From an uncultured Mycoplasmatota bacterium (GTDB taxonomy: Bacteria > Bacillota_I > Bacilli_A > RF39 > UBA660): a DNA stretch of 44,857 nt. Location: positions 1-44,857 of the forward strand of contig CAMMQC010000010.1 of assembly GCA_946498975.1 (NCBI GenBank), written 5' to 3'. This document shows positions 1-18,442 of the stretch, one piece after another. The translations under genes and the position numbers were made by a program. The notes under the pieces are model-generated. The model saw nothing but the letters and a program-made list of their open reading frames with translations. It searched no databases and was not told the DNA's origin. Each line of letters starts with the position of its first letter. Positions within the stretch are counted from its first letter, which is position 1.

Positions 1-8
1 TGAAAAAA

Positions 9-30: not shown

Positions 31-54
31 CTAGTTCCTTGACTGAACTGTAAC

Positions 55-85
55 AAAAAATCACTGAAATTTTATCAGTGATTTT
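55..85 (-). terminator. Rho-independent terminator of the surface-protein operon
   Basis: Arms AATCACTGA and TCAGTGATT enclose a short AT loop. On the minus strand they are followed by TTTTTTG. The hairpin overlaps the stop codon of the signal-peptidase-like gene and so closes the operon that begins near 5630. Confidence 0.75.
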
Positions 86-614: not shown

Positions 615-652
615 TTTAACCTCCATCTTAATAATAACATATCTTATAGTAA

Positions 653-1549: not shown

Positions 1550-1561
1550 AACCTGCATCTC

Positions 1562-2112: not shown

Positions 2113-5100
2113 CTACTTAACAATAAACTTCTCATCAAGAGTTCCTATTTTAGTATTGCTATCATATAATTCAAAAACTAATCTATATCCTCCTCTTTCT
2201 AATGTAGAAGGACTAAACTTTAATTCTAAAGTATTTTGATAATCTAATGGACTTTTAAAGGCATAATAGACTTTATCATTAACTAGTTCTAAATCATTAG
2301 TAATATATTCATTTAAATCTATTAGTTCATAGTCTTGATTAAAAGCTGTAAAGTTTTTCTTTTTATATAATGATACTCTAATATTACCATCAGTCGCTTC
2401 TATTTCTTTAGTAATATTAAAGGTAAGTACTTGTTCTTCATTTTCTTTATTAATTATCTTACTAGAAGTATTTTCTACATTAAAACTATAATCATCTATA
2501 AAATTATCAACAATAACTGGTATTTCTATTGTATCAGTACTAACTACATCTTCATAAATACCATCTATAGAAGATGCTGTCATAATAGAAAAGTGATATG
2601 TTCCTTTCTTTAAACTACTATTATCTATAGATGTTTCTATTTGTAATTTATTAGTATAATCATTCATATCACTAGATAAATTAATTTTAATATATCCACT
2701 AGAATCTGGATAATATTTAGTATCATTAAGAGTAAATGAAAGATTTTTTAAGCCATCTTCTTCTACTGTATTACCTTCATCATCTACTAATTTCATTAGT
2801 AAAATAAAGCCTTTATCTTGATATGTTGTATCAATAACATTATCATTATCTATTTGTTGATAGTTTAATTTAGTTGTAAATTCTAATTCTGTTAAGGAAT
2901 CACTATTATAATTTATATTATTTATAGTATCTTCAGTTGTTAAACTGATTGAAGCATCTTTAGAATTATAGATATTAAATGACTTAAGACTATTTTCTAA
3001 AGTATCAAGAATAATATCATTATTTTTATCTTTTAATACTATAGATAATTTTATATCTAAAATATCTTCTTCTATATCAGTATTTTCAAAAGATAATTTA
3101 ACATTATAGTTTTCATTTATATTACCAGTCTCTATTTCTTCAAAAGTAGTATCATCATCTTTTCCTACTTCTTTGAATAAAGAAAAGTCATAACTAGTTT
3201 CTTTATCATCAGTAGTAGTATAAGTATATACTTTTTCACTATGATTATCTATTATAGTAATAATAGTATCTTTAGGTAATAGAGTATTAGATACTAAACT
3301 ATGTTTATAGCCTTCTAAATAAGGTTTATCTCCCTCATAAGTAATATTTAAGTTAACACTAGATTTATCAGTAATATTAGTATTATCAATACTATTTACT
3401 TTATAACCATCTATATTAATATAATCTGTATTAACATAAGTAACATCATCATAATTATCTATTACTTTAACATAAACTATATTTTTACCAATATTATCAA
3501 GTACTATTTCCTCATCATAAGGAGTAAATTCAAGTTGTTCTAGTTCTTCTTTAGTCTTTATATCAGGAGAAATATAATAAAGTATATTAGTCACAGTAGA
3601 TAAATCATCAGTAGCACTTACAGTTAGTGTTTCACTTTTATTAGTATATATCTCATCAACTGTTGTTTTAAAACTATCAAAAGTTAAATCTCCCATTGTT
3701 ATTGTAATAGAAGCTTCAGTCTTATCAAGTACTAAAATATCTGTATTTATATAGGAAATATTATTATCATAGTCAACCGCTTTTACATAAATAATATATT
3801 CTCCCATATCACTTATTTCAAATATACCTTCATAAGGATTAAATTCTAATGATTCTACTTCATCTAGTGATAAAGCCTCATTTCCTTCATAAACATAATA
3901 ATAAATCTCTTTATTTGGTATTATTGATGAAGTATCTGTAATAGTAGCATTTATATTATCTTTAAACTTTATAGATTCTAAATTACTAGAGAAATTATTA
4001 TAAGAATAATCTCCTAGATTAATTATAGCACTAGAACTACTCTCTTCATCAAAATATAGTAGTGGATAAGTATCATTATATGTAAAGAGATTATCTTTAT
4101 TAGTTTCTAAATCTTCTAAACTTATAAACTCTTTATATAATAAAGTATTTATAAGAAAATCTTTATTTTTCAAATTAGATATATCTGTTATATTAAATGT
4201 TCCTGTTACTTCTCCCTTATTAATTACATTTCCTTCTGTATAATAAGAATTATTTACATTAATAGTACTATTATTACTATCATTAATTAAGTAATTACTA
4301 CTACTAGCATTAAAACTATTAGTAATATCTAGTGTAGAATCTATTACATTACCTATTAGACCAATGTTATTAGGTGAAGTTAAAGTACCACTATTATAAC
4401 TGTTAGTAATAGAAACATCACCTGTAATAGAACCTACTAAACCACTACTTAAATATGGTGAATTAATACTACCATTATTATAGGAATTAGAGATTTCTAT
4501 ATTAGAACCCTTACCTACTAGACCACTACTAATTCCCTTACCATAGATATCTGCTTTATTAATAACATTAGTTAAAGTAGTATTATCTGCCTTACCAATA
4601 AGACCTCCTGTTATATCTGTTAGATAAGTAACTTCATATTTTAAATTAGATAATGTGATATTTTGATAATCACCTGAACTAATTTCTAAAGAGTTATAAT
4701 TATCTAAAGTAATTGAAAAATCATTAGTAGTAATACTATTACCATTAATAGTTAAATTACTTAAATTATTAGTAGTACCAGTTAAAGTAACATTAGTAAT
4801 AATACCATCTACATCTATATCATTAGGAGTAATTACTTCATTAGATGATGTTAAGTTAATATCATCTAATGAGATTGTTGTATTTAAAGTATTACTAGTA
4901 TCATTACTAATTACATAACCATTATATAAAACATTACTAATACTAGCATTGGTAGCATTAGATGCAATAGATGCTGTATTATTACCACCATATATTACTG
5001 AATTAGTAAAGAATAGATTAGAGATATTACCTTCTAAATTAGTAAAGAAAGAAAGATCAGTTACATTGCTTTCTCTAATATATAAACCATATATTGTATG

Positions 5101-5586
5101 ACTATTTCCATCTATCTGTCCTTTAAAGTTATTAAGGGATGAGAAATTATTTATATTAGAGATAACTGTTCCTTCTCTACTAGGATTATCATATAATTCA
5201 TTACTATATTCTTTAACATAATATGTAACATCATCTTTAAGATATTGTAATTTATTAGTATCATCATATATAAAATATCCATCATTAATAACAATATCAT
5301 TTTCTATAGAAAAATATGTATCAATATAGTCAGTAGTTTCTAAGTTTTTAGCAAGTAAAGCAAGTTCAGATCCATTACTAATAACATATGGATCTTCTTT
5401 AGTACCACTACCATCTCTATAATTAGATGCCACTGTTCCATCCCATACTGAAACATTATCAGTCGTTATTTTACTCTGGAAACGGCCTAAACTTGGTATA
5501 GCGACCACAAGTGCAAATATAATAATTAGTAAAATAATTAAACAATATACTCTTGTTTTTTTAGATGACTTTAATTTTTCTATCAT
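2113..5586 (-). CDS. Giant surface protein with GLUG repeats and Ig-like domains
   Basis: The protein has 1157 aa. Residues 12-31 form a membrane segment followed by SLGRFQSKITT, again the SipW-type junction seen in its neighbours. Residues 59-80 (GSGTKEDPYVISNGSELALLAK region) are the usual lead-in of GLUG adhesins. About residues 160-450 are Asn/Thr/Ser-rich, with GLUG-type repeats at about 328-425 (GGLIGKA, SGLVGKG, SGLVGSI, IGLIGNV, each followed by an NSYN-like strand), predicted as a right-handed beta-helix. Two homologous Ig-like units follow at about 522-622 and 625-727, then several more beta domains to the end. No LPXTG-type sorting signal is present, so anchoring is by the N-terminal segment or by co-polymer partners. 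It is first in its operon, behind the promoter at 5625-5653. Adhesion or envelope structure is inferred. Confidence 0.75.
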   Translation of the reverse strand: MIEKLKSSKKTRVYCLIILLIIIFALVVAIPSLGRFQSKITTDNVSVWDGTVASNYRDGSGTKEDPYVISNGSELALLAKNLETTDYIDTYFSIENDIVINDGYFIYDDTNKLQYLKDDVTYYVKEYSNELYDNPSREGTVISNINNFSSLNNFKGQIDGNSHTIYGLYIRESNVTDLSFFTNLEGNISNLFFTNSVIYGGNNTASIASNATNASISNVLYNGYVISNDTSNTLNTTISLDDINLTSSNEVITPNDIDVDGIITNVTLTGTTNNLSNLTINGNSITTNDFSITLDNYNSLEISSGDYQNITLSNLKYEVTYLTDITGGLIGKADNTTLTNVINKADIYGKGISSGLVGKGSNIEISNSYNNGSINSPYLSSGLVGSITGDVSITNSYNSGTLTSPNNIGLIGNVIDSTLDITNSFNASSSNYLINDSNNSTINVNNSYYTEGNVINKGEVTGTFNITDISNLKNKDFLINTLLYKEFISLEDLETNKDNLFTYNDTYPLLYFDEESSSSAIINLGDYSYNNFSSNLESIKFKDNINATITDTSSIIPNKEIYYYVYEGNEALSLDEVESLEFNPYEGIFEISDMGEYIIYVKAVDYDNNISYINTDILVLDKTEASITITMGDLTFDSFKTTVDEIYTNKSETLTVSATDDLSTVTNILYYISPDIKTKEELEQLEFTPYDEEIVLDNIGKNIVYVKVIDNYDDVTYVNTDYINIDGYKVNSIDNTNITDKSSVNLNITYEGDKPYLEGYKHSLVSNTLLPKDTIITIIDNHSEKVYTYTTTDDKETSYDFSLFKEVGKDDDTTFEEIETGNINENYNVKLSFENTDIEEDILDIKLSIVLKDKNNDIILDTLENSLKSFNIYNSKDASISLTTEDTINNINYNSDSLTELEFTTKLNYQQIDNDNVIDTTYQDKGFILLMKLVDDEGNTVEEDGLKNLSFTLNDTKYYPDSSGYIKINLSSDMNDYTNKLQIETSIDNSSLKKGTYHFSIMTASSIDGIYEDVVSTDTIEIPVIVDNFIDDYSFNVENTSSKIINKENEEQVLTFNITKEIEATDGNIRVSLYKKKNFTAFNQDYELIDLNEYITNDLELVNDKVYYAFKSPLDYQNTLELKFSPSTLERGGYRLVFELYDSNTKIGTLDEKFIVK

Positions 5587-5624: not shown

Positions 5625-5653
5625 ATTATAGCATAATTTTACAAATATTTACA
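5625..5653 (-). promoter_or_regulatory. Extended -10 promoter for the GLUG-protein operon
   Basis: On the minus strand TATGCTATAAT gives a perfect -10 (5625-5630) with a TGC extension. The -35 region (about 5648-5653, TTGTAA/TGTAAA) is weak, as expected for an extended -10 promoter. The leader to the ATG at 5586 is about 30 nt and carries AAAGGAAG. It overlaps the 3' end of the preceding gene. Confidence 0.6.
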
Positions 5654-7292
5654 AAAGATTTCCATTTTTTCTTTCATTTGACACTATTTTATCAACTTTA
5701 CACATAAACCAAATTTTTTCTATAGTAGTCTTACTATTTTCTATTTTATTAATTCTTAATATTAAAAGAATTTGATTTAATAAGTTTGTTAAATTATCTT
5801 CATCTAAAGCTTCTTCTGTTAGTTTAATACTATTTAAATTATATTTATTAGCGATAATTCTTGCAATGTTTCTCTCATCAAAAAGAGGAAGCCCAGAAAC
5901 AATAATATTAGTAGTATTCATAGCGAATAAATCAAAGTCTTCACTATATTTAGATATTTCTTCAAAACTATTAGTATCATAAGCTTTAGCGATAGCAAGT
6001 TTTTTAAAGTAATCAAAACTATAATATAAATTTAAAACATCCATAATAGTTAAAGTATTACTTAAAGTAGACATAACTTTAGCTTTAAAGTATTCTTCAT
6101 CATATGTTTTATATAATTTATATAGTTCTTTCGCTTTTAGTACTGACTCTGCCTTTAAGTGTTTTAAGTCATTATCACTTTTAAATTCAAAGAATCCTGG
6201 TTTACCACTAAATATTTTTTTATTTATTCTTTCAAGTTCATTTTCTTTAGAATTAATTTTTTCTACTACTTCTTTTAAACCTTTATAAGGTACTTCATTA
6301 TCATCTTTTGGTACTAAATTTATATATTCATCTCTAAATTCATTAAATAAAGGTAAAAACTCTAAATAGTTATTATATTCTTCTATATTTATCTTTAATT
6401 TTTCTAAAACATTACAAACTTTAACCATTTCTTTTTCATTACTAGTATCTACTTCTGTTGGTACTAAAGTATTATAAGCATTAATTCTTGCCTTACTACC
6501 TTCTCTTAATTGCTCTATATCTATATCACCTTTTCTTGCTAGAGCGATAATATCATTAACAGTCTCTTTTTTAGCAAGATTTAAATCAATATAAAGGGAT
6601 TTTAACTTTTCTATACAATCATTATAATTCTCAACATTATTATCTCTCATTGCATCTTTTTGTAATTCTAAAATATAGTTTGAGAATCTTTTCTCATTAA
6701 TTTTAATTAGTTTACGAAAGTTAAGCTCAATATGTTCAATTAATTCAGGATTTATCCAATATATTTGTTCAAATACTTCTCCTACCTTATCATAGTTTTT
6801 AGTTTTCTTATTACGAACATCTAAAAAAGCAGTCATATATTCGTGAACATAGCAAGTATAATGGAAATCATCTTTAGTAAGAGCTATACCAACTAATTGA
6901 AATTTATCTAAGAAGCCATTAATAATATCATTTAGTGAATCAAAATTAAAGGTTGTATAATTATTTATTTGATATAATAAGGTATCAAATCCCATCTTTT
7001 CAAAGTAAGTATTTGTTGGATTAAGTAAGAACTTAACGTGCTCTAAATTAATTATTTTCTCATTTAATTTATCAGTATTAACATCACTTACATCATCTTT
7101 TAAAGTAAAAGAACGACTTTTAGCAAGAAGATAATTTACAAGACTAGTTTTATAGTTTATATATTTATCTTCAATATTATCAATAGTTTGATTTAATTTC
7201 TTAACATTAGTTTTAGTTCTTGAAGGCATAGTAGAAACTAAAGTCTTTTTCGCTTCTATATCTTTTTTAATAAAATCTAAAAAATTATTCAT
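5649..7292 (-). CDS. Unknown cytosolic helical protein inside the surface locus
   Basis: The protein has 547 aa with no signal peptide or membrane segment. It is rich in Lys, Asn, Glu and Leu and appears almost wholly alpha-helical, with likely coiled coils near the N-terminus (LVSTMPSRTKTNVKKLNQTIDNIEDKY region) and around residues 285-370. I recognise no catalytic motif. Its start codon overlaps the end of the 45-aa ORF upstream by 8 nt, so the two are translationally coupled and probably work together. Its position between secreted subunits and surface proteins suggests a cytoplasmic role in production or export control of the locus, but this is inference only. Confidence 0.6.
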   Translation of the reverse strand: MNNFLDFIKKDIEAKKTLVSTMPSRTKTNVKKLNQTIDNIEDKYINYKTSLVNYLLAKSRSFTLKDDVSDVNTDKLNEKIINLEHVKFLLNPTNTYFEKMGFDTLLYQINNYTTFNFDSLNDIINGFLDKFQLVGIALTKDDFHYTCYVHEYMTAFLDVRNKKTKNYDKVGEVFEQIYWINPELIEHIELNFRKLIKINEKRFSNYILELQKDAMRDNNVENYNDCIEKLKSLYIDLNLAKKETVNDIIALARKGDIDIEQLREGSKARINAYNTLVPTEVDTSNEKEMVKVCNVLEKLKINIEEYNNYLEFLPLFNEFRDEYINLVPKDDNEVPYKGLKEVVEKINSKENELERINKKIFSGKPGFFEFKSDNDLKHLKAESVLKAKELYKLYKTYDEEYFKAKVMSTLSNTLTIMDVLNLYYSFDYFKKLAIAKAYDTNSFEEISKYSEDFDLFAMNTTNIIVSGLPLFDERNIARIIANKYNLNSIKLTEEALDEDNLTNLLNQILLILRINKIENSKTTIEKIWFMCKVDKIVSNERKNGNLL

Positions 7293-7422
7293 CTAAATCA
7301 TCCTCTTCTATTCTTTGATCATTTAAAAAATGTAAAAACTCTTCAATCTCTTCATAAGCTTCAATTAGATCTGATAAACTAAGTCGTGATAAATCAAAAT
7401 CTATTATTTCTTCGTTTTTCAT
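7285..7422 (-). CDS. Small acidic ORF coupled to the 547-aa protein
   Basis: The predicted product is 45 aa, MKNEEIIDFDLSRLSL and onward, ending in EEDDLDE. It is about one third acidic and probably a single amphipathic helix. GGAGGAG sits 4 nt before the ATG, a strong ribosome binding site. It fills the gap between gene C and the 547-aa gene, and its stop overlaps the next start by 8 nt. That arrangement argues that it is really translated. No family is recognised; it could be a small subunit or adaptor for the following protein. Confidence 0.6.
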   Translation of the reverse strand: MKNEEIIDFDLSRLSLSDLIEAYEEIEEFLHFLNDQRIEEDDLDE

Positions 7423-7436
7423 ATGTCTCCTCCTTT

Positions 7437-8552
7437 TTATTCATTAAAGGTAGTATAACCTTCAGTATCTTTAACAAAACTTATTGATATATCTAAATCA
7501 GTACCTTCTGAATTTGTTTCTAAACTATCAATATCTTGGCCTTCAACCCATAGATATACTCTAGCCTTAGTAATACCATTAGGTATTTCAAAAATTGGTT
7601 CACTAAAATCTTCTTCTGTTATTGTATTTTGTAAGGTAAAATAATTTGGATCAATATTAGGTGAACCTGAGACTGTATTAGCGACAAAAATTGGCCCACC
7701 TGCTCTACTAACTGCATATGTTGGAAAACGTTGTCCATTTACTAGATTAACATTATATTTTCTAGCTCTTTCTATTGATAAATTAGTATGATTTCTACTA
7801 TTAGGTTCATATATTATAGCATTACAATCATTGTTACAACTAAGATTTTGAACGGCAGTAGCAGGGGCATCTAATGTAGTACTATCTATTTTAACTATAC
7901 CTACTCTTATAGAATTACCTAATCCTTGCATTTCTTCATTAGCATCTGCTGCTATCGTAATAGATGTAGATCTATCAAAATATAAATTATCGCTAACAGG
8001 AGAGCCTGTTTCATTACGTAAAAAGATATCAAATGCTAAGTAATAACTATATTCTTTTCTCTGTGTTTCTTGTCTTTCGGTTGTATAAATAAAACCATTA
8101 TCGATATCTCTTCTTTGATAAAGTACACCCTCACTTGTAAAAATATTAAAATCAGGACTATTATGATTAGTAATTCCATTAGAAGAAACAGGAACTAATC
8201 CATTTCCAACCCATAGACTTTTGTTAGTAGGATATGTGTTAACAAGATTATTTAAAATAGTATCTTCAGTTATATCAACATAACTATCGTAATTAATTGC
8301 ATCTAATGATATTGTTAAACCACTATTTCTGTCAACTGCCATTCTAAACGTTCTAATTCTTACATTTAGTGCAGAAGAAAACCAAGCATAAGTTGCAACT
8401 ATTAGTAGAATACCAAATAATAATAATGCAATTATTGTTTTTCTTTTACTAATACGGCCAAAGAAAAGTTTATTTTCTTGATTATTACATCTTTTTTTTA
8501 CTTTCTGACGTTTCTTTAGCTTTTTAGTTGTTGGAGTCTTCTTTTTAGTCAC
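7437..8552 (-). CDS. Protein C: single-copy relative of the A/B array proteins
   Basis: The protein has 371 aa with a GTG start and AGGAGG upstream. A long lysine/arginine-rich N-terminus of about 40 residues precedes a hydrophobic segment and ATYAWFSSALNVR, the same export junction as in A and B. The central part keeps IRVGIVKID, a shortened SCNNDC pair and IYEPNSRNHTN in place of the A/B block. The C-terminal part keeps the ITKARVYLWVEGQDIDSLE strand block. It has two cysteines in the region where A and B have four. It follows A1 after a terminator-like hairpin and precedes the small acidic ORF by 14 nt. It could cap or anchor a fibre made of A and B; that role is inferred. Confidence 0.7.
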   Translation of the reverse strand: MTKKKTPTTKKLKKRQKVKKRCNNQENKLFFGRISKRKTIIALLLFGILLIVATYAWFSSALNVRIRTFRMAVDRNSGLTISLDAINYDSYVDITEDTILNNLVNTYPTNKSLWVGNGLVPVSSNGITNHNSPDFNIFTSEGVLYQRRDIDNGFIYTTERQETQRKEYSYYLAFDIFLRNETGSPVSDNLYFDRSTSITIAADANEEMQGLGNSIRVGIVKIDSTTLDAPATAVQNLSCNNDCNAIIYEPNSRNHTNLSIERARKYNVNLVNGQRFPTYAVSRAGGPIFVANTVSGSPNIDPNYFTLQNTITEEDFSEPIFEIPNGITKARVYLWVEGQDIDSLETNSEGTDLDISISFVKDTEGYTTFNE

Positions 8553-8575
8553 TTTTATACCTCCTTCATAATGTA

Positions 8576-8612
8576 AATAAAGAGTAATAATTTAATAATA
8601 TTACTCTTTATT
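8576..8612 (-). terminator. Terminator-like hairpin between A1 and C
   Basis: A perfect 14-bp stem (8576-8589 with 8599-8612, arm AATAAAGAGTAATA) encloses a 9-nt loop. The minus-strand tail is only TTTACATT, so termination may be partial. C lies just downstream without an obvious promoter of its own, so read-through probably feeds it. Confidence 0.65.
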
Positions 8613-8628
8613 AAACTTATACCATATC

Positions 8629-9945
8629 TTATGGTTCTTCTACATCAGGTCCGTTTTCTTCTTCATCTGATGGAGTAATATCAGTACTTGGTCCATCGTA
8701 ATCAATGTCTTCTTCTGTATATCTTTCCTTAGTGAATCCAAAGTTTACAGAAACTTTAGCACCAAGTTGAGCGAAATCATAGTTATCTATATCTTGTCCT
8801 TCAAGATAAATATATACTCTTACTTTAGTAATACTATTTGGTGCAAGTGTCATAAATTGTGGTCTTTCTGCTCCTGCAATTTTTTTCATTGTATCAGTAA
8901 AGTTTGGATATTCTACTAATTTATATGGGGCTTTATCTTCTGCTGCAGCATAAGTAGCATAATCTATTGTATTAGTAGCATATGTATTGAATGCAGTTCC
9001 ATCATAAATATTTACACCATCAGCAACATCAATTCTTCTACTAATTGCATATGTAGGATATGCTGTACCATTAACTATATCATTACAAGTTGTAGTACCA
9101 TCATCACTTTCTGTATATGAACTAGAAGAATAAACATCAGCAGCTGTTCTTGCTAAACAAGATTTATCATACCAATTGATAGCATTTTGAACGTGTGCTG
9201 TATCATTTGGTTCCCAAATTTGAGCACTACGACAAATTCCAGTTACTGGAGCAGCTCCATCAGCATCATCAGCACAAGTTATACCAGTAATTGTATCTTG
9301 ATCTACAGTATCTCCTTCTACACGTCCTATTTGTGCAAAAGCTACTCTTAATGAGTTTTCAATACCTGTATTTGGTACTCCACCTACATCTGCTACTTTT
9401 ACAGATGAATTTGTATTTAAGTAAATTGCTTCTTCATTATCTGGGTCATTATCAATATAATATTCATCTCCAGATAAGTTTTTAATGAATAAATCAAATG
9501 CTACATAACCATCACCTTCGATGTATGCCCCAGTTGTATCCTCTGTATCAGTATAGTTATTAACTTGTGCAGATAATAATCTATAACCTCCAGGTACAGC
9601 TGTTAAACTTGATTTTTCATATAATTTCATTCTTGATGTTGTACTATCCATATCTCCAACAGATGATAGAGGTATTAATTCTACACCATCTAATTTATTT
9701 GTATTGTTGTCATATTGTGTTGCTTCATTAACATCAAGATTATATTTCCAATCAATTCCATCCATTGATAGGAATAATCCTTCTGTTGTAGCAATATTTA
9801 TATCAAATTCTGATACTTCTACTCGCTTCATTCCTATAAACCAAGCATATGTTGATACAGCTAAGATTATTGCTATTAAAGAACACATTGCGACTAACTT
9901 TCTAATTTTCTTAGAATGTTTCTCATTATGTTTCTTCCTTTTCAT
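8629..9945 (-). CDS. A1: SipW-dependent (TasA/camelysin-like) surface protein, A type
   Basis: The protein has 438 aa. MKRKKHNEKHSKKIRKL is followed by a hydrophobic stretch and STYAWFIGMKRVEVSEFDINIA, the export junction of SipW-dependent proteins, with cleavage expected near YA/WF. Conserved features follow in order: SSVGDMDSTTSRM, GYVAFDLFIKNLSG, NSLRVAFAQIGRV, four cysteines around QIWEPNDTAHVQNAINWY, then RVYIYLEGQDIDNYDF and a short acidic tail. The start at 9945 has GGGAGG 5 nt upstream; a longer in-frame start would include that site. It is the second gene of module 1, separated from B1 by 68 nt that contain a hairpin, unlike the 15-nt gaps of the other modules. A fibre subunit paired with B1 is inferred. 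Confidence 0.75.
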   Translation of the reverse strand: MKRKKHNEKHSKKIRKLVAMCSLIAIILAVSTYAWFIGMKRVEVSEFDINIATTEGLFLSMDGIDWKYNLDVNEATQYDNNTNKLDGVELIPLSSVGDMDSTTSRMKLYEKSSLTAVPGGYRLLSAQVNNYTDTEDTTGAYIEGDGYVAFDLFIKNLSGDEYYIDNDPDNEEAIYLNTNSSVKVADVGGVPNTGIENSLRVAFAQIGRVEGDTVDQDTITGITCADDADGAAPVTGICRSAQIWEPNDTAHVQNAINWYDKSCLARTAADVYSSSSYTESDDGTTTCNDIVNGTAYPTYAISRRIDVADGVNIYDGTAFNTYATNTIDYATYAAAEDKAPYKLVEYPNFTDTMKKIAGAERPQFMTLAPNSITKVRVYIYLEGQDIDNYDFAQLGAKVSVNFGFTKERYTEEDIDYDGPSTDITPSDEEENGPDVEEP

Positions 9946-9974
9946 AATTCCTCCCACTTTTATCATATATAGTA

Positions 9975-10002
9975 CTGAAGGATAATAAGTATTATCCCTC
10001 AG
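9975..10002 (-). other. Strong hairpin between B1 and A1
   Basis: Arms CTGAAGGATAATA and TATTATCCCTCAG (one mismatch) enclose 2 nt, making a near-palindrome just after the B1 stop. There is no T tract, so it looks more like a processing or 3'-stabilising structure than a terminator. The B2-A2 and B3-A3 junctions lack it. Confidence 0.6.
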
Positions 10003-10013
10003 TTTATATTGTT

Positions 10014-11411
10014 TTAACTAAAATTCCAAGCACCATCAGTCTTAGTTGCAGTTTTATCTGTTCCACCATCTTTAAATGTAAAGCTTGTTATTGTTTTTGG
10101 AACACTAAATTCTCCTGCTCCTGAACTCCAAGTAATTTCCTCTGGAGAGATATCTGTAATTTCACCTGCAGCAGAATATTTTACAGCTTCATTTCTTTTT
10201 ACATCTTCTGGTAACTCAGGATTTCCATCATAATCAATATCTTCACCATAGAATCTTTCTTTAGTGAATCCAAATGATACTGATATTTTCTTACCAAGTG
10301 ATGCAAAGTCATAGTTATCTATATCTTGTCCTTCGATATAAACATATACTCTTACTTTAGTAATACTATTTGGAGCAAGTGTCATAAATGTAGGACGTTC
10401 AACTCCTTGTAAGTTTTTCTCTGTATCTGTAAATGTATCAAGATCTACTAATTTTCCATCAGCTGCTACTGGAGAAATACTATCAGTATAACCATTATAA
10501 TCAGCACCATCATACACATCTACTGTATCTGTTTCATCGATAACTCCACTTACTACATAAGTATGATAAGCTGTTCCATCACTAACAGTACCACAAGCAC
10601 CATTATATGATGCATCATCAAATACATCATCTGCAATTCTCTTTTTACAAGATGCATTATACCAATTTATAGCATTCTCTACGTGTTTAGTATCGTTTGG
10701 CTCCCAGATTTGAGCATTTCTTTGATCACAAATCTTAGTAGAACCATTACTTCCAGAACAATCAATACCAGTAATTGCAGTTGTAGCTACTGTATCTGCT
10801 TTAACACGACCTACTTGAGCGAATGCTACTCTAACAGAGTTTTCAATACCTGTATTTTGTTCACCACCATTTGTTGAAGCAGAAGCTTTTGATTCAGGTG
10901 TTAAGTAAATTGCTTCTTCATTAAGTGGATCATAATTTGTATAATACTCTTCACCTGATAAGTTCTTAATGAATAAGTCAAATGCTACATAGCCGTCAGT
11001 TTCTTGAGTAGAACTGTTATTAATACGGCTAGACATCAAACGATAACCACCTTCAGTAGCAGTTAAACTACCTTTTTCAAACATAATTAGTTTTGATGTA
11101 TCAGGGTCCATCGCTCCTACTGTTGATAAAGGTACAAGTCCTTCTCCACCCCAGCTATTAGTGTTACCTACGTAACTAGCATCATTATAATTTGTTTCAT
11201 TAATGGTTACTGTATCATCCCAATCAGTACCATTAAGTGATAAACTCAAACTTTCTGTTGTGGCAATAGAAATATCAAAACTTGAAACGTTAACAGTCTT
11301 CATACCTATAAACCACGCATAAGTAGAAACACCTAAAATTAATGCACATAAAGCTGTTCCAACTGCCAACTTTTTAACGCGTTTTTCGTGTTTCTTGTTT
11401 CTTTGTTTCAT
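10014..11411 (-). CDS. B1: SipW-dependent (TasA/camelysin-like) surface protein, B type
   Basis: The protein has 465 aa. MKQRNKKHEKRVKKLAVG precedes a hydrophobic segment and STYAWFIGMKTVNVSSFDISIA. Shared blocks follow: GEGLVPLSTVGAMDPDTSKL, GYVAFDLFIKNLSGEEYY, NSVRVAFAQVGRV, four cysteines around QIWEPNDTKHVENAINWY, and RVYVYIEGQDIDNYDF. B types then carry about 65 extra residues absent from A types, including ITWSSGA and FTFKDGG-like segments, probably a small beta domain. The ribosome binding site GGAGAAGGG lies just before the ATG. The gene heads module 1 behind a leader of about 250 nt and the promoter at 11641-11716. A major fibre subunit is inferred from copy number and family resemblance. 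Confidence 0.75.
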   Translation of the reverse strand: MKQRNKKHEKRVKKLAVGTALCALILGVSTYAWFIGMKTVNVSSFDISIATTESLSLSLNGTDWDDTVTINETNYNDASYVGNTNSWGGEGLVPLSTVGAMDPDTSKLIMFEKGSLTATEGGYRLMSSRINNSSTQETDGYVAFDLFIKNLSGEEYYTNYDPLNEEAIYLTPESKASASTNGGEQNTGIENSVRVAFAQVGRVKADTVATTAITGIDCSGSNGSTKICDQRNAQIWEPNDTKHVENAINWYNASCKKRIADDVFDDASYNGACGTVSDGTAYHTYVVSGVIDETDTVDVYDGADYNGYTDSISPVAADGKLVDLDTFTDTEKNLQGVERPTFMTLAPNSITKVRVYVYIEGQDIDNYDFASLGKKISVSFGFTKERFYGEDIDYDGNPELPEDVKRNEAVKYSAAGEITDISPEEITWSSGAGEFSVPKTITSFTFKDGGTDKTATKTDGAWNFS

Positions 11412-11467
11412 AAATCCCTTCTCCTTTTCTCTAATCTTAAAAGAAACTAAACTAGAATTCTAAACTT

Positions 11468-11561
11468 GTGTTACCTTACGAAAAACCAGGCTTTTTTTCA
11501 TAAAATAACACGAAATTTTTAGTTTTCGAGTTTAAAATCCCAAAGCATTAGACCATAATGC
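11468..11561 (-). promoter_or_regulatory. Structured 5' leader of B1 with GCCUGG-loop hairpin
   Basis: The 11412-11640 leader contains a two-part hairpin (11468-11511): outer stem GTGTTA/TAACAC, inner stem GAAAAA/TTTTTC, and apical loop containing GCCTGG on the minus strand. A second hairpin follows at 11545-11561 (GCATTA/TAATGC). The B2 leader holds the same two elements with different stem sequences. No known riboswitch class is recognised. Confidence 0.5.
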
Positions 11562-11640
11562 CTATAATATTATAAATAATACCACCGACTTCTGTATAGG
11601 AAATAAACTTAGTGAAAAACATCTTGAAACAACCCATACT

Positions 11641-11716
11641 ATATACACTCCGATATCTTTATAATATAGTTTAATTATAGCAATAACGAATTGAGGAAGT
11701 CAATATATTTTGTCGA
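11641..11716 (-). promoter_or_regulatory. Module promoter P1 (before B1-A1)
   Basis: On the minus strand TTGACT (11698-11703), 18 nt, then TATAAT (11674-11679). TCGACAAAA lies just upstream of the -35, and the block TATAAAGATATCGGAGTGTA (11641-11662 area) covers the predicted transcript start. The same arrangement recurs at P2 and P3. The upstream and downstream blocks are candidates for an operator and a 5'-end RNA element. Confidence 0.75.
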
Positions 11717-11764
11717 ATTTTCGGTTATTTTGTAGAAGTTTACAATATTAATATTATGCAAAAA

Positions 11765-11788
11765 AAAGAAGTCTTTTTTAACTTCTTT
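11765..11788 (-). terminator. Terminator of module 2 (after A2)
   Basis: Stem AAAGAAGT/ACTTCTTT with an 8-nt loop, followed on the minus strand by TTTTTTTT. It overlaps the last codons of A2 and separates module 2 from P1. Confidence 0.8.
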
Positions 11789-13097
11789 AAGGATGTATTT
11801 CTTCATCTTCTGATGGAGTAATATCTGTACTTGGTCCATCGTAGTCGATGTCTCCTTCTGTATATCTTTCTTTAGTAAATCCAAAGTTTACAGAAACTTT
11901 AGCACCAAGTTGAGCGAAATCATAGTTATCTATATCTTGTCCTTCAAGATAAATATATACTCTTACTTTAGTAATACTATTTGGAGCAAGTGTCATAAAT
12001 TGTGGTCTATCAGCACCTGCGATATTTTTCATTGTATCAGTGAAATATGGGAAGCTAACTAATTTATAAGCAGCTTTACCATCAGAATCAGCAGCACTAT
12101 ATGTAGGATATTCACTAGATTCAATACTATTTGCTGTATATTTATTAAATGCTGTACCATCATAAACATTTACTTCATCAGCAACATCTATTCTTCTACT
12201 AATTGCATATGTAGGATAACTTGTTCCATTAGAAATTGTATTACAAGTTGTAGTATCACCATCAGTATAAGATGCATCACTATCAACATCAGCAGCTGTT
12301 CTTGCTAAACAAGATTTATCATACCAGTTAATTGCATTTTGAACGTGATCAGTATCGTTTGGCTCCCAAATTTGAGCATTACGGCAAATTCCTGTTACTT
12401 GAGCAGCTCCATCTTCATCGTCAGCACAAGTCATACCAGTAATTGTATCTTGATCTGTTGTATCTGCTTTAACACGTCCAAGTTGTGTAAAGGCAACTCT
12501 AATTGAATTTTCAATACCTGTATTTTCTACTCCACCATCTGTTGCAACAGTTACACTAGAATCTGTATTTAAGTAAATTGCTTCTTCATTTTCTGGATTA
12601 TTTGTAACATAATATTCTTCTCCAGATAAGTTTTTAATGAATAAATCAAATGCTACATAACCATCACCTTCAATATAAGCTTGAGTGTTTGGTTCTTGTT
12701 CAGTATAGTTATTAACTTGTGCAGATAATAATCTATAACCTCCAGGTACGGCTGTTAAACTTGATTTTTCAAATAATTTCATTCTTGATGTAGTACTATC
12801 CATATCTCCAACAGATGATAGAGGAATTAATTCTACATCATCTATTTTATTTGTATTATTTTCATATTGTGTTGCAGTATTAACATCCAAATTATACTTC
12901 CAATCAATACCATCCATTGATAAGAACAATCCTTCAGTAGTTGCAATATTAATATCAAATTCTGATACTTCTACCCTCTTCATACCAATAAACCACGCAT
13001 AAGTTGATACACTTAAGAAGATAGCGATTAAACAGCAAAATGCAGCTAACTTTCTAATATTCTTAGAATGTTTTTCATTATATTTTTTCTTTTTCAT
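11787..13097 (-). CDS. A2: SipW-dependent (TasA/camelysin-like) surface protein, A type
   Basis: The protein has 436 aa. The export junction STYAWFIGMKRV is at residues 31-42. Secreted-part cysteines are at 224, 238, 263 and 285, around QIWEPNDTDHVQNAINWY (242-259). The RVYIYLEGQDIDNYDF block is at 379-394, and the C-terminus is acidic (SEDEEIHP). Long stretches match A1 and A3, while about residues 130-145 and 265-350 vary. AGGAGG lies 10 nt before the ATG and overlaps the end of B2 (15-nt gap), so B2 and A2 are co-transcribed. It ends in a terminator. The A/B pairing in every module suggests a heteromeric assembly; this is inference. Confidence 0.75.
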   Translation of the reverse strand: MKKKKYNEKHSKNIRKLAAFCCLIAIFLSVSTYAWFIGMKRVEVSEFDINIATTEGLFLSMDGIDWKYNLDVNTATQYENNTNKIDDVELIPLSSVGDMDSTTSRMKLFEKSSLTAVPGGYRLLSAQVNNYTEQEPNTQAYIEGDGYVAFDLFIKNLSGEEYYVTNNPENEEAIYLNTDSSVTVATDGGVENTGIENSIRVAFTQLGRVKADTTDQDTITGMTCADDEDGAAQVTGICRNAQIWEPNDTDHVQNAINWYDKSCLARTAADVDSDASYTDGDTTTCNTISNGTSYPTYAISRRIDVADEVNVYDGTAFNKYTANSIESSEYPTYSAADSDGKAAYKLVSFPYFTDTMKNIAGADRPQFMTLAPNSITKVRVYIYLEGQDIDNYDFAQLGAKVSVNFGFTKERYTEGDIDYDGPSTDITPSEDEEIHP

Positions 13098-13112
13098 CTA
13101 ACCATTACCTCC

Positions 13113-14510
13113 TTAATTTATTTGCCAACCATCACCTGAATTAGTTGCTGTTTTTAAAGTACCTTCATCTTTAAATGTAAATGTATCAATTGTATTTGGA
13201 ACTCTAAATTGTTTAGCACCTGAACTCCAAGTAATTGCATCTGGTGTGATATCTGTAATTGCACCAGTAGGTTCATAATCAACTGCAGTTACATCTCTAA
13301 CTACATCAGCAGGTAATTGTGGATCTCCATCATAATCAATATCTTCACCATAGAATCTTTCTTTAGTAAATCCAAATGATACTGATATTTTCTTACCAAG
13401 AGATGCAAAATCATAATTATCAATATCTTGTCCTTCAATATATACATATACTCTTACTTTAGTAATACTATTTGGTGCAAGTGTCATAAATGTAGGACGA
13501 TCAACACCTTGTAGATTTTTCTCAGTATCTGTAAATGTATCAAGATCTACCAATTTACCATCAGCAGCTGTTGGAGAAATACTTTTTGTATAACCATTAT
13601 AATCTTCTCCATCATATACATCTACTGTATCTGTTTCATCAATTTCACCACTTACAACATAAGTTGAATAAGCAGTTCCATCACTAACAGTACCACAAGC
13701 ACCTGCATATGATCCTTCATCCATTACACTATCACCAGTTCTTTTCTCGCAAGATTCATTATACCAATTAATAGCATTTTGAACGTGTTTTGTATCGTTA
13801 GGCTCCCATACTTGTGCATCTCTTTGATTACAAATCTTAGTAGAACCACCAGTACCAGCACAATCAATACCTGTAATAGTACCAGGATCCTCTGTATCTG
13901 CTTCAACACGTCCTACTTGAGCGAATGCAACTCTTACAGAGTTTTCAATACCTGATTTAGCTTCTTCTCCAACCATAGCAGATTTAACTGTAGATTCAGG
14001 TGTTAAATAAATTGCTTCTTCATTTTGTGGATCATAATTTGTATAATATTCTTCACCTGAGAAGTTTTTAATAAATAAATCAAAGGCAACATAACCATCT
14101 GTTTCAGCTGTAGTATTATCTACTTGACTAGCCATTAAACGATAACCACCAGCAGTTGCAGTTAAACTACCTTTTTCAAACATAATTAATCTTGATGTAT
14201 CTGGACTCATAGCACCTGTTGTAGAAATAGGAACAAGTCCTTCTCCACCCCAACTGTTAGTATTCCCATCGTAACTAGCAGTATCATAATTTTCTCCATT
14301 GATATTTACTTCATAATCCCAAGTCTCACCGTCAAGAGAAAGCATTAAACTCTCAGTACTAGCAATTGAAATATCGAAACTTGAAACATTAACAGTTTTC
14401 ATACCAATGAACCAAGCATAAGTAGAAACACCTAGGATAATTGCACATAATGCAGTTGCAATCCCGAGTTTCCTTAAGCGTTTTTCATGTTTTTTGTTTC
14501 TTTTTTTCAT
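13113..14510 (-). CDS. B2: SipW-dependent (TasA/camelysin-like) surface protein, B type
   Basis: The protein has 465 aa, the same length as B1. TYAWF is at residues 30-34 after a basic start (MKKRNKKHEKRLRKLG). It has the four-cysteine block around QVWEPNDTKHVQNAINWY, the RVYVYIEGQDIDNYDF block, and the B-type C-terminal extension containing ITWSSGAKQF and FTFKDEG. It heads module 2, with a ribosome binding site GGAGAGAG before the ATG, a leader of about 200 nt and promoter P2 upstream. Differences from B1 and B3 concentrate in the surface-loop-like middle part, which suggests diversification of exposed regions. The role as fibre subunit is inferred. Confidence 0.75.
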   Translation of the reverse strand: MKKRNKKHEKRLRKLGIATALCAIILGVSTYAWFIGMKTVNVSSFDISIASTESLMLSLDGETWDYEVNINGENYDTASYDGNTNSWGGEGLVPISTTGAMSPDTSRLIMFEKGSLTATAGGYRLMASQVDNTTAETDGYVAFDLFIKNFSGEEYYTNYDPQNEEAIYLTPESTVKSAMVGEEAKSGIENSVRVAFAQVGRVEADTEDPGTITGIDCAGTGGSTKICNQRDAQVWEPNDTKHVQNAINWYNESCEKRTGDSVMDEGSYAGACGTVSDGTAYSTYVVSGEIDETDTVDVYDGEDYNGYTKSISPTAADGKLVDLDTFTDTEKNLQGVDRPTFMTLAPNSITKVRVYVYIEGQDIDNYDFASLGKKISVSFGFTKERFYGEDIDYDGDPQLPADVVRDVTAVDYEPTGAITDITPDAITWSSGAKQFRVPNTIDTFTFKDEGTLKTATNSGDGWQIN

Positions 14511-14546
14511 AAAAAAACTCTCTCCTTTTTATTATCATTATACAAC

Positions 14547-14611
14547 TTATTCTTTAGTATATTAACCAGGCATTAATAATTTAAAAGAATAATTTTTTGG
14601 CATTAAATGCC
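14547..14611 (-). promoter_or_regulatory. Structured 5' leader of B2 with GCCUGG-loop hairpin
   Basis: Outer stem TTATTCTTT/AAAGAATAA (14547-14555 with 14584-14592), inner stem ATTAA/TTAAT, apical loop TGCCTGG on the minus strand. A second hairpin, GGCATT/AATGCC, lies at 14599-14611. Loop and order match the B1 leader while stem bases differ. The D leader, about 65 nt long, has no counterpart. Confidence 0.5.
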
Positions 14612-14684
14612 ATATTATAAACAATATCAATAATAGTGTACAGCAAAAAAACTGCAAAAAACATTCTGTAACTACTTATATAAT

Positions 14685-14757
14685 CATACACCCCGATATC
14701 TTTATAATATATTTCAATTATAACAATAGCAATAATAAAAATCAATATATTTGTCGA
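14685..14757 (-). promoter_or_regulatory. Module promoter P2 (before B2-A2)
   Basis: TTGATT (14740-14745), 17 nt, TATAAT (14717-14722) on the minus strand. TCGACAA is upstream (14751-14757) and the conserved block ending GATATCGGGGTGTATG (14685-14711) lies at the predicted 5' end of the transcript. It is one of three matching promoters in the locus. Confidence 0.75.
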
Positions 14758-14782
14758 ATTTTATCGCACATTTTTTGCAAAA

Positions 14783-14811
14783 AAAAACGAGGTAACTTTT
14801 TCCTCGTTTTT
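14783..14811 (-). terminator. Terminator of module 3 (after A3)
   Basis: Stem AAAAACGAGG/CCTCGTTTTT with a 9-nt loop and a long minus-strand T tract. It overlaps the A3 stop codon, so module 3 (D-B3-A3) is a closed unit. Confidence 0.85.
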
Positions 14812-16114
14812 ATGCCCCTTCTTCTTCAGGAGATGGAGTTATATCAGTACTAGGACCTTCATAATCAATATCTCCTTCTGTATATCTTTCCTTAGTAAAT
14901 CCAAAGTTTACAGAAACTTTAGCACCAAGTTGAGCGAAATCATAGTTATCTATATCTTGTCCTTCAAGATAAATATATACTCTTAGTTTAGTAATACTAT
15001 TAGGTGCAAGAGTCATAAATTGTGGTCTATCAGCTCCTGCGATATCCTTCATTGTATCAGTAAAGTAAGGATAATCTACTAATTTATAATTAGTTTTTGT
15101 TTCAGCTGCTTCATAAGTAGCATAATCTGTAGAATTTGCAGCATAAGTATTAAATGCAGGTCCATCATATATGTTAACTTGATCAGCAACATCTATTCTT
15201 CTACTAATTACATATGTTGGATAAGCAGTACCATTAACAATTTGATTACAAGTAGTATTATCATCCTCGCTAGGAGTATAAGATGCATCATTATCAACAT
15301 CAGCTGCTGTTCTTGCTAAGCAAGAAGTATTATACCAATTAATAGCATTCCCTACATGGTCAGTATCATTAGGTTCCCAAATTTGAGCATTACGACAAAT
15401 TCCTGTAACAGGATATGTTCCTTTTTTATTATCAGCACAAGTCATTGCTGTAATTGTACTAACTGCTTCTGGAGCTTCAGTATTTTCAATACGTCCAATT
15501 TGTGTAAAGGCTACTCTAATTGAGTTTTCAATACCTGTATTTTGTACTCCTCCATCTGCTGCAACTGTAACACTAGAGTTTGTATTTAAGTAAATTGCTT
15601 CTTCGTTTTCTGGATTATTTTCAATATAGTATTCTTCTCCAGATAAGTTCTTAACGAATAAATCAAATGCAACATAACCATCACCTTCAATATATTCACC
15701 AGTTGTATCTTCTGTATCAGTATAGTTATTAACTTGTGCAGATAATAATCTATAACCTCCAGGTACTGCTGTTAAACTTGATTTTTCAAATAATTTCATT
15801 CTTGATGTAGTACTATCCATATCTCCTACTGAAGATAAAGGTATTAGTTCTACACCATCTATTTTATTAGTATTATTTTTATATTGTGTTGCTTCATTAA
15901 CATCTAAGTTATATGTCCAATCAGAACCATCCATTGATAAGAATAATCCTTCAGTAGTTGCAATATTAATATCAAATTCTGATACTTTAACAGTCTTCAT
16001 ACCTATAAACCATGCATAAGTTGATACACTTAAGAAGATAGCGATTAAACAGCAAAATGCAGCTAATTTTCTAATTTTCTTAGAATGTTTTTCGTTATAT
16101 TTTTTCTTTTCCAT
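14810..16114 (-). CDS. A3: SipW-dependent (TasA/camelysin-like) surface protein, A type
   Basis: The protein has 434 aa. MEKKKYNEKHSKKIRKLAAF precedes the hydrophobic segment and STYAWFIGMKTVKVSEFDINIA. Its junction carries the B-type KTV instead of the KRV of A1 and A2, a hint of exchange between paralogues. The four-cysteine region surrounds QIWEPNDTDHVGNAINWY, followed by LRVYIYLEGQDIDNYDF and a short acidic end. The 15-nt gap to B3 and the shared AGGGGG-type site show co-transcription. It is the last gene of D-B3-A3. Function is as inferred for the other A proteins. Confidence 0.75.
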   Translation of the reverse strand: MEKKKYNEKHSKKIRKLAAFCCLIAIFLSVSTYAWFIGMKTVKVSEFDINIATTEGLFLSMDGSDWTYNLDVNEATQYKNNTNKIDGVELIPLSSVGDMDSTTSRMKLFEKSSLTAVPGGYRLLSAQVNNYTDTEDTTGEYIEGDGYVAFDLFVKNLSGEEYYIENNPENEEAIYLNTNSSVTVAADGGVQNTGIENSIRVAFTQIGRIENTEAPEAVSTITAMTCADNKKGTYPVTGICRNAQIWEPNDTDHVGNAINWYNTSCLARTAADVDNDASYTPSEDDNTTCNQIVNGTAYPTYVISRRIDVADQVNIYDGPAFNTYAANSTDYATYEAAETKTNYKLVDYPYFTDTMKDIAGADRPQFMTLAPNSITKLRVYIYLEGQDIDNYDFAQLGAKVSVNFGFTKERYTEGDIDYEGPSTDITPSPEEEGA

Positions 16115-16129
16115 CTAACCATTACCCCC

Positions 16130-17545
16130 TTAATTTATTTGCCAACTACCAGCAGATTTAGTAGCTGTCTTAGTAACTTCATCATCTTTAAATGTAAAGC
16201 TTTCTATACCATTAGGAACACTAAACTTTCTTGCTCCACTAGACCATGTAACACTACGTTCTGAAATATCAGAAATAACTCCAGTAGGAGTATAATCTAC
16301 TTCTTCAGCATTTCTTTGAACATCTTCTGGTAATTCAGGATTTCCATCATAATCAATATCTTCACCATAGAATCTTTCTTTAGTAAATCCAAATGCTACA
16401 GATATTTTCTTACCAAGAGATGCAAAATCATAGTTATCTACATCTTGTCCTTCAATATATACATATACTCTTACTTTAGTAACACTATTAGGTGCAAGTG
16501 TCATAAATGTAGGACGCTCTACTCCACGTAAATTTTTCTCTGTATCTGTAAATGTATCAAGATCTACTAGTTTATCTGCTTGTGCACTAGCTGCAATACT
16601 ATCAGTATATCCATTGTAATCTTCACCATCATATACATCTACTGTATTAGGAGAAGTTATTTCATTACCAATTACATAAGTTGAATAAGCAATACCATCA
16701 ACTACAGGATTACAAGATCCAGTATATGAAGTATCTTCCATTACATTAGCACCAGTTCTATGTTTACAAGATTCATTGTACCAATTAATTGCATTGTCAA
16801 CGTGTTTAGTATCATTAGGCTCCCAAATTTGTGCAGCTCTTGTATCACAAATCTTAGTAACACTTCCGCCTCCAGCACAACTAATTCCTCTAATAGTATT
16901 TGCAACTCCATCATCTTCTACAGTTGCATCAGTAGCTTCAACACGACCTACTTGAGCAAAAGCTACTCTAACAGAGTTTTCAATACCTGTATTTTGTTCT
17001 CCACCATTTGTTGAAACATCTACATATGATTCTGGAGTTAAATAAATTGCTTCTTCATTTTGTGGATCATTTTGAGTATAATACTCTTCTCCTGAGAAGT
17101 TTTTAATAAATAAATCAAATGCTACGTATCCAGGTACTTCTGCTGCAGCAGAATTATTAACACGGCTAGCCATTAAACGGTAACCACCTTCAGTAGCAGT
17201 TAAACTACCTTTTTCAAACATTATTAATTTAGATGTATCAGGATCCATCGCTCCTACTGTAGAAATAGGAATAAGACCTTCTCCACCCCAACTGTTAGTA
17301 TTTCCTTCATAAGCATCACTAAAGTTATCTTCGTTAATAGTTACTTCTTGAGCCCAATTTTTTCCATCAATAGAAAGCATTAAGCTCTCAGTTGTAGCGA
17401 TAGAAATATCAAAGCTTGAAACATTAACAGTTTTCATACCTATAAACCAAGCATATGTCGAAACACCTAAAATCAATGCACACAATGTAGTGCCAACAAC
17501 TAACTTTTTGACACGTTTTTCGTGTTTCTTGTTTCTTCTCTTCAT
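16130..17545 (-). CDS. B3: SipW-dependent (TasA/camelysin-like) surface protein, B type
   Basis: The protein has 471 aa, slightly longer than B1 and B2. The N-terminus is MKRRNKKHEKRVKKLVVG, then the hydrophobic segment and STYAWFIGMKTVNVSSFDISIA. The loop before the first cysteine is expanded (TDATVEDDGVANTIRG). Conserved parts are QIWEPNDTKHVDNAINWY, RVYVYIEGQDVDNYDF and the B-type C-terminal extension. It begins 20 nt after D and shares its promoter P3, so it has no long leader of its own, unlike B1 and B2. A major fibre-like subunit is inferred. Confidence 0.75.
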   Translation of the reverse strand: MKRRNKKHEKRVKKLVVGTTLCALILGVSTYAWFIGMKTVNVSSFDISIATTESLMLSIDGKNWAQEVTINEDNFSDAYEGNTNSWGGEGLIPISTVGAMDPDTSKLIMFEKGSLTATEGGYRLMASRVNNSAAAEVPGYVAFDLFIKNFSGEEYYTQNDPQNEEAIYLTPESYVDVSTNGGEQNTGIENSVRVAFAQVGRVEATDATVEDDGVANTIRGISCAGGGSVTKICDTRAAQIWEPNDTKHVDNAINWYNESCKHRTGANVMEDTSYTGSCNPVVDGIAYSTYVIGNEITSPNTVDVYDGEDYNGYTDSIAASAQADKLVDLDTFTDTEKNLRGVERPTFMTLAPNSVTKVRVYVYIEGQDVDNYDFASLGKKISVAFGFTKERFYGEDIDYDGNPELPEDVQRNAEEVDYTPTGVISDISERSVTWSSGARKFSVPNGIESFTFKDDEVTKTATKSAGSWQIN

Positions 17546-17565
17546 AAAACCTCTTTTCCCTTCTT

Positions 17566-18267
17566 CTATTCATCATCAATTTCTGAATTAAAGTTCATAT
17601 GAACTTGGAATTCACCACCAAGTATATTATCAGTACATTCTAAGTCTGATCCTTCTACCCATATAACAATAGTATATTTATCAACTTGTCCTGGACCAAA
17701 ACTTGCAACGTGATCAAGTGCCACTAAGTTTTCATCTGGATTTTCAAAAGGAACAGTGCCTGATTCTGGTTCCCCTAACGTTGATAACTTAGCATAGGTA
17801 GTCGCTTCCCCATTCTTATAAACTCTAATTCTAACGGCCTCATCGACATTTCTAATAATATCATCGATTACAACCTCACTCCAATAATCGGTTACATCAT
17901 CTCCTGTATTCTCTACATAAAAAGTATAGGCCAGATAATTATCACCATTGTGTGAGCCTCCTTCTTGATTAGCAATATCAGTTGGTAACCAACGATATGA
18001 AATATTGTCAAAAGTCTCAGGTGCTGGTGCTAATAATTCTGATCTATAAACTTTATATAAAGGATCATCGTAAATGATTAACCCTCTATCGAAGTACAAA
18101 TTTTTATCTAGCGTTATGCTAAAATTTCCTCTATTATAAATAATACCTACAACAATATATAAAATTAGTAATAAAAACAAGATTAATACTAAAGCAATTA
18201 ATAAAACACGTTTAAGCATCTTTTCGCGTTTAAGTTTTTCTGTCTTTAATTTAACTTTCTTTTGCAT
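17566..18267 (-). CDS. Protein D: small membrane-anchored relative at the head of the array
   Basis: The protein has 233 aa. A lysine-rich start (MQKKVKLKTEKLKREK) precedes one long hydrophobic segment at about residues 20-42. No TYAWF motif follows; instead IIYNRGNFSITLDKNLYF leads into the extracellular part. A single domain follows with YLAYTFYVENTGDDVTDYWSEV and TIVIWVEGSDLECTDNILGGEFQVHMNF, the latter matching the EGQDID strand block of A, B and C. The missing cleavage motif suggests it stays in the membrane and may start or anchor assembly. It is first in the P3 transcript, 20 nt before B3. The anchoring role is inferred. Confidence 0.7.
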   Translation of the reverse strand: MQKKVKLKTEKLKREKMLKRVLLIALVLILFLLLILYIVVGIIYNRGNFSITLDKNLYFDRGLIIYDDPLYKVYRSELLAPAPETFDNISYRWLPTDIANQEGGSHNGDNYLAYTFYVENTGDDVTDYWSEVVIDDIIRNVDEAVRIRVYKNGEATTYAKLSTLGEPESGTVPFENPDENLVALDHVASFGPGQVDKYTIVIWVEGSDLECTDNILGGEFQVHMNFNSEIDDE

Positions 18268-18307: not shown

Positions 18308-18383
18308 CATACACTCCGATATCTTTATAATATAATTAAATTATACTGTCAAGAAAAACAAAAAGTCAATAGAGTTTTGTCGA
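18308..18383 (-). promoter_or_regulatory. Module promoter P3 (before D-B3-A3)
   Basis: TTGACT (18364-18369), 18 nt, TATAAT (18340-18345) on the minus strand. TCGACAAAA is upstream (18375-18383), and the conserved block with TATAAAGATATCGGAGTGTA lies at the transcript start (18308-18334). The leader to D is only about 65 nt. A second possible -35/-10 pair (TTGACA, 17 nt, TATAAA) is embedded here but is not conserved at P1 and P2. Confidence 0.75.
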
Positions 18384-18442
18384 AATATGTATTATTTTAA
18401 TATTGTTTACGTTTAATATAATTAAATTATTAAAATTTTTTC

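Follow-up and report, generated by a model that had tools for sequence, protein, structure and literature searches.

Alternating SipW-type pilin-like genes of an uncultured gut bacterium form one end of a conserved cluster whose second module fits the CoCoPALM systems

TasA fibres assemble by donor-strand exchange and are encoded in an operon with SipW and TapA (PMC9674648). The CoCoPALM systems, which are related to McrBC, were named in one paragraph of a 2024 eLife paper, which goes no further than the suggestion that the signal peptidases may act in pilus assembly and leaves everything else for later (PMC11090510). In the literature searched, no later CoCoPALM paper was found, and no relevant paper discusses SipW and McrB jointly.

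The locus analyzed here lies in a 44,857-nucleotide stretch of DNA (the window) from an uncultured gut bacterium. At positions 7437–18267 the sequence-only reading had recognized three pairs of related genes, A and B, with the single relatives D and C at the ends, and the ORF list contains all eight reading frames at these coordinates on the minus strand (Table 1). The pairs do alternate, but what had been read as B-A is transcribed as A then B, in the order D, A3, B3, A2, B2, A1, B1, C. The extent of about 11 kb holds for these eight ORFs, but gene order in relatives shows that the alternating pairs are one end of a larger conserved gene cluster that runs well beyond them. Like the Bacillus TasA/TapA/SipW system, the locus has SipW-type junctions, a beta-sandwich ectodomain, an accessory protein in first position and Spo0A in the genome. 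Unlike that system, it has two alternating subunits with a four-cysteine insert, its D protein stays anchored, an NTPase is linked to it, and A, B and D have no Pfam or NCBIfam match.

Table 1 Features of the cluster in the window (window coordinates)
Feature	Position	Strand	Description and basis
D	17566..18267	(-)	233 aa; single TM helix at the N-terminus, ectodomain a beta-sandwich, SipW motif absent; ORF, 37-row alignment, AF2, hydropathy
A3	16130..17545	(-)	471 aa, SipW-type pilin-like; ORF, alignment, AF2
B3	14810..16114	(-)	434 aa, SipW-type pilin-like; ORF, tree
A2	13113..14510	(-)	465 aa, SipW-type pilin-like; ORF, tree
B2	11787..13097	(-)	436 aa, SipW-type pilin-like; ORF, tree
A1	10014..11411	(-)	465 aa, SipW-type pilin-like; ORF, tree
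B1	8629..9966	(-)	445 aa, SipW-type pilin-like; ORF, tree
C	7437..8552	(-)	371 aa, shorter A/B homologue, two-cysteine block; type kept in divergent relatives
45-aa acidic microprotein	7285..7422	(-)	FDLSxLxLxELI; conserved; overlaps start of next gene
CYT547	5649..7292	(-)	547 aa, conserved, no TM or signal peptide
BIG	2113..5586	(-)	1157 aa, N-anchored surface protein
Small SipW-type surface protein	1562..2107	(-)	181 aa, TYSKY junction
SipW-type surface protein	653..1558	(-)	301 aa, SFAKY junction
Pseudo-SipW	84..659	(-)	191 aa, SipW-peptidase homologue without catalytic Ser and His
IS element end	1..54	(-)	Multi-copy; other end is the start of contig C39; 8-bp target duplication GATTTTTT
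D promoter region	18309..18384	(-)	Spo0A-box-like TTCGACAAAA at 18375-18384; TTGACT-18-TATAAT; 25-bp element at 18309-18333
A2 promoter region	14686..14758	(-)	TTCGACAAAT; TTGATT-17-TATAAT; 25-bp element at 14686-14710
A1 promoter region	11643..11717	(-)	TTCGACAAAA; TTGACT-18-TATAAT; 25-bp element at 11643-11667

Sequence comparison confirmed that A, B and C are homologous proteins with SipW-type export junctions. Identity is 74–78% among the A paralogues, 82–84% among the B paralogues, 58–59% between A and B, 33% between A and C and about 30% between D and A or C. In profile comparisons A and C are homologous across 335 columns (E 1e-51), and D resembles the others weakly and in the C-terminal block alone. 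The shared motifs reported earlier apply to part of the set. The TYAWF export junction is present in A, B and C but absent from D, and EGQD(I/V)D is common to A, B and C but reads EGSD in D. The WEPND four-cysteine block occurs in A and B (Cys 223, 233, 260 and 278 are invariant across an alignment of 52 A-type proteins), but C-type proteins have only two invariant cysteines, C239 and C243, and D has one. Lengths, earlier noted as equal within each type, are 465–471 residues for A and 434–445 for B.

By hydropathy the N-terminal TM segment is the only one in each of the four proteins; the SipW junctions of A, B and C are of the cleavable type, and these three lack an anchor at the C-terminus. 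D, the product of the first gene, is membrane-anchored, as the sequence-only reading had inferred, and lacks a SipW motif in 37/37 aligned relatives; we propose that it is the membrane base or initiator. A sortase-assembled pilus was rejected, as A, B, C and D have no C-terminal sorting signal or second TM segment. The genome has six sortase matches, among them a gene in the window (34999–35493) without evident link to the pilin-like locus. None of the four proteins matched a TasA/camelysin model of Pfam or NCBIfam; C reached only E 0.16 against the SipW-signal model, and the A profile had no match among PDB sequences. In the phylogenetic tree the core clades of A (60 sequences) and B (52 sequences) each have support of 99, with a few divergent lineages outside them. 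A is followed by B at 54 distinct places in related genomes (median gap 26 bp), so, given the separate clades, the pairing is not due to chance.

The AF2 model of A (pLDDT 85) shows a helix at the N-terminus, a junction modelled with low confidence at residues 31–38, a beta-sandwich core that carries inserts and, at the C-terminus, a further beta domain. Foldseek gave no match to A below E 0.3. When its candidates were ranked by structural alignment, where Z under 8 counts as weak, the best were the archaeal 0406 filament (7pnb; Z 5.8, 135 residues, 4.2 Å), FimA (Z 5.5, 132 residues, 3.6 Å) and the TasA fibre (8aur; Z 5.4, 143 residues, 3.9 Å); the archaeal 7ueg gave Z 3.4. All of the top matches are donor-strand subunits, and the resemblance of A to the TasA type is weak. 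The D model (pLDDT 83) matched TasA at Z 5.4, level with unrelated beta-sandwiches. The earlier reading as fibre-like proteins is supported insofar as the best, though weak, fold matches of A are donor-strand fibre subunits, TasA among them. Because the fold matches are weak (Z under 8) and D is equally like generic beta-sandwiches, we do not file these proteins in the TasA family, although they may work in a TasA-like manner. The archaeal donor-strand filaments (the 0406/thread filament and the bundling pili) share weak fold similarity with A, but no sequence similarity was found, and we know of no link between those filaments and McrBC-like genes. The Gram-negative chaperone-usher pili (FimA) likewise share weak fold similarity and the logic of a heteropolymer, but no chaperone or usher gene is seen in this cluster.

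Gene order was surveyed in 68 loci from related genomes plus 20 further regions. The order D-A-B-C is kept in relatives, but usually with one A-B pair, and the cluster extends beyond C into genes for a 45-residue protein, CYT547, BIG, two small SipW-type proteins and a dead SipW homologue. The microprotein is kept in most relatives, divergent ones included. CYT547 (about 545 residues in relatives) adjoins the 3' side of C at 42 distinct places; it is predicted to be cytosolic, matches no known family and has a single, chance-level match among PDB sequences. BIG has weak Ig-like (OmpL47-type) matches, and its counterpart is 2370–3060 residues long in divergent relatives that have no A/B subunits (L127–L136). 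The last gene is homologous to the SipW-type peptidases (hhalign probability 97%, E 3e-10), but neither the SGSM nor the THR/THE motif was found among the relatives examined. It was therefore rejected as the SipW of the locus, since its catalytic residues are missing; active peptidases are encoded on contigs C39 and C16.

In several relatives the cluster leads straight into a second module, whose genes encode, in order, a long peptidase of the SipW type, an McrB-like NTPase with a membrane anchor, a DUF2357 protein, another, short SipW-type peptidase and a TLAWF protein. Two relatives (L122 and L123) have the contiguous order D-A-B-C-CYT547-BIG-181-301-pseudoSipW-SIPL-MCRB-DUF2357-SIPW-P409, and three others (L124–L126) have this 14-gene order with small variations or truncation. 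Counted at distinct places, D adjoins A 49 times, SIPL adjoins MCRB 26 times and the pseudo-SipW gene adjoins SIPL 11 times. In 22 McrB-like sequences the Walker A motif, DEMN and N-x-D are invariant, the last as TINNDD (N347 and D349). In CoCoPALM an FtsB-like TM plus coiled-coil domain is fused to the NTPase; the protein here has one TM segment at residues 49–89 followed by a charged, helical-looking stretch, and it gave only a weak FtsL-type match (E 0.34). In its partner Pfam finds DUF2357 alone (PF09823, E 1.6e-9, above cut-off) and no nuclease domain, although a degenerate PD-(D/E)xK fold could escape Pfam. Both SipW-type peptidases are above the TIGR02228 cut-off, with Ser56 and His99 invariant.

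In the genome of the window this module lies on another contig, C39 (L115:142-6665). C39 and the contig of the window, C10, end in the same 17-bp repeat, of which the genome has seven copies. On these two contigs the match faces outwards and begins 38 bases from the contig end; the remaining five copies lie 52–55 bases from the ends of their stretches. The seven repeat ends are of two types and include three left-right pairs with an exact common 8-bp flank, which for C10 and C39 is GATTTTTT. The common repeat ends and flank place an IS copy between the dead and the long SipW genes, which adjoin each other in eleven distinct relatives (median gap 99 bp). We infer, rather than read through, the join, by which the cluster would here too be a single unit, interrupted by an IS and split over two contigs. 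As a reading of the inverted 17-mers that end these contigs, phase-variable inversion was rejected, because the 17-mers terminate an IS family that has seven matches, with three pairs sharing 8-bp target duplications. The IS termini, at window 1–54 and at the start of C39 (L115:1-54), account for several of the breaks between contigs of the MAG. A separate, canonical-looking cluster on contig C16 (L114:1944-6749) has five tandem TasA-like genes and an active-type SipW. Kinship of A or D with these proteins was rejected, as profile comparison gave no significant match.

The second module fits CoCoPALM in its main published features, judged by sequence: an NxD McrB-like NTPase with an N-terminal TM region, a DUF2357 partner and linked signal peptidases. 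In contrast, the D-A-B-C structural locus, the pseudo-SipW, CYT547, the microprotein and the Spo0A-box-like sites are not described for CoCoPALM in the papers searched.

Co-occurrence was scored over one set of 193 genomes of the same family, where pilin-like proteins were found in 52, McrB-like proteins in 56 and CYT547-type cytosolic proteins in 47. Leaving out of the count five genomes that have only a separate McrB-like clade (47–51% identity), 50 genomes had both pilin-like and McrB-like proteins, two had pilin-like proteins only, one McrB-like proteins only and 140 neither (Fisher p about 1e-42, with the genomes counted as independent and kinship ignored). The two pilin-only genomes are 81–84% complete. 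Two other genomes of the genus of the window have neither set of genes, so the unit has apparently been gained and lost as a block. The two halves of the cluster are, with high confidence, inherited together, which shows that they are functionally linked but does not show a mechanism. In the separate McrB-like/DUF2357 clade the gene adjoins TasA-like and SipW-like genes in the two members with enough sequence (L148 and L149), which suggests that the link is general.

This survey does not support the alternating triplicate design as the essence of the system. Most loci have one A-B pair; three are found in the MAG of the window and near-identical MAGs and two in a sister, so the triplication is local to the species group of the window. 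In divergent relatives D and C-type proteins occur without A/B, and the constant part of the cluster is D, the C-type protein and CYT547 rather than A/B. Between these MAGs orthologous copies are 93–99% identical versus 74–84% for paralogues, and thus the A/B copies look like stable isoforms.

The locus has three transcription units, beginning with D, A2 and A1, each with a promoter-like site, a 25-bp element and a Spo0A-box-like site. The 25-bp element lies just downstream of the -10 box; its three copies in the window (0 expected) are identical or one mismatch apart, and it occurs nowhere else in the genome. The upstream site at D, A2 and A1, TTCGACAAA, resembles the known Spo0A box of Bacillus. 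Such a site is found between -145 and -80 of D in 38/65 distinct loci, compared with 12/840 control genes (p 6e-39). Spo0A, which is encoded in this genome, is the probable regulator, with binding at the three promoters predicted from the Bacillus box. The long A1 and A2 leaders gave only sub-threshold Rfam matches to unrelated families, and a riboswitch or RNA element was rejected.

Taken together, the locus most plausibly belongs to a CoCoPALM system and encodes its surface structure, which SipW would process and which is probably a heteropolymer of the TasA-like kind; we consider this reading likely, with polymerization and GTPase coupling being the inferred parts. SipW-type N-termini are seen in A, B and C and in several of the small proteins, and D keeps a membrane anchor. 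SipW would cleave A, B and C, the freed and highly conserved N-terminal segment would serve as the donor strand, and an A and B heteropolymer would be built on membrane-bound D; C and BIG would be its terminal or adhesive components. A platform spanning the membrane would be formed by the McrB-like ring with its McrC-like DUF2357 partner, by CYT547 and by the dead homologue of SipW, and would use the energy of nucleotide hydrolysis to supply subunits, order them or release them. Transcription would start from the promoters with Spo0A-box-like sites, and three pairs in three units, each with its own promoter, could give higher dosage or alternative subunit isoforms. From sequence we have moderate confidence in filament formation by the subunits of the cluster and low to moderate confidence in energy coupling of the McrB-like NTPase to assembly. 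To our knowledge, known TasA fibres have not been reported to need an NTPase, and the role of this one is therefore conjecture. That the cluster is a new Gram-positive-type pilus machine, in which SipW-processed two-subunit fibres are assembled or ejected by a McrBC-derived AAA+ motor, is a tentative reading that we hold to be somewhat doubtful.

The donor-strand assembly of TasA fibres and their operon with SipW and TapA (PMC9674648), together with SipW-type junctions and Spo0A-box-like sites that recall tasA biology, would also suit a self-sufficient TasA/camelysin-like biofilm fibre operon, to which the McrB-like module is a mere neighbor and no partner. We think this unlikely given the near-perfect co-inheritance with that module across 193 genomes, the contiguous operons of the same 14 genes and a constant part that is not A/B. 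Relatives of McrBC are restriction enzymes, the nearest PADLOC model to the McrB-like protein is the phage-defence candidate PDC-M26A (E 1.5e-39) and presence is patchy inside genera, all of which would speak for phage defence or type IV restriction, with surface proteins that sense phages, act as decoys or make contact, and with the McrBC-like pair as effector. However, Pfam finds no nuclease domain in the DUF2357 protein, two active SipW peptidases and at least eight exported proteins are more in keeping with export than with restriction, and the second McrB clade also adjoins TasA-like genes, which makes such a defence role quite unlikely.

An adhesin of several subunits that is tethered to the membrane and does not polymerize, or a coat resembling an S-layer, its paralogues kept for antigenic variety, could account for the strongly negative charge and paralogue families of the surface proteins, the Ig-like matches of the large partner BIG and the match of D to generic beta-sandwiches. 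It seems very improbable, as the junctions of A, B and C are of the cleavable type, as these proteins lack a C-terminal anchor and as paralogue positions are highly conserved, not variable, between closely related MAGs.

CoCoPALM was named on a guess of pilus building with the pilus itself missing. Read as the surface structure of such a system, this locus offers candidate structural subunits, a candidate membrane base and candidate cytosolic partners, and the question of a McrBC-type motor driving surface assembly becomes directly testable. It would extend SipW-dependent fibre biology to uncultured gut Bacilli, with Spo0A as probable regulator, and points to a new mode of surface-fibre assembly among Gram-positive relatives. 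If true, a McrBC-derived pilus motor would be the first surface-appendage role for that restriction-enzyme lineage.
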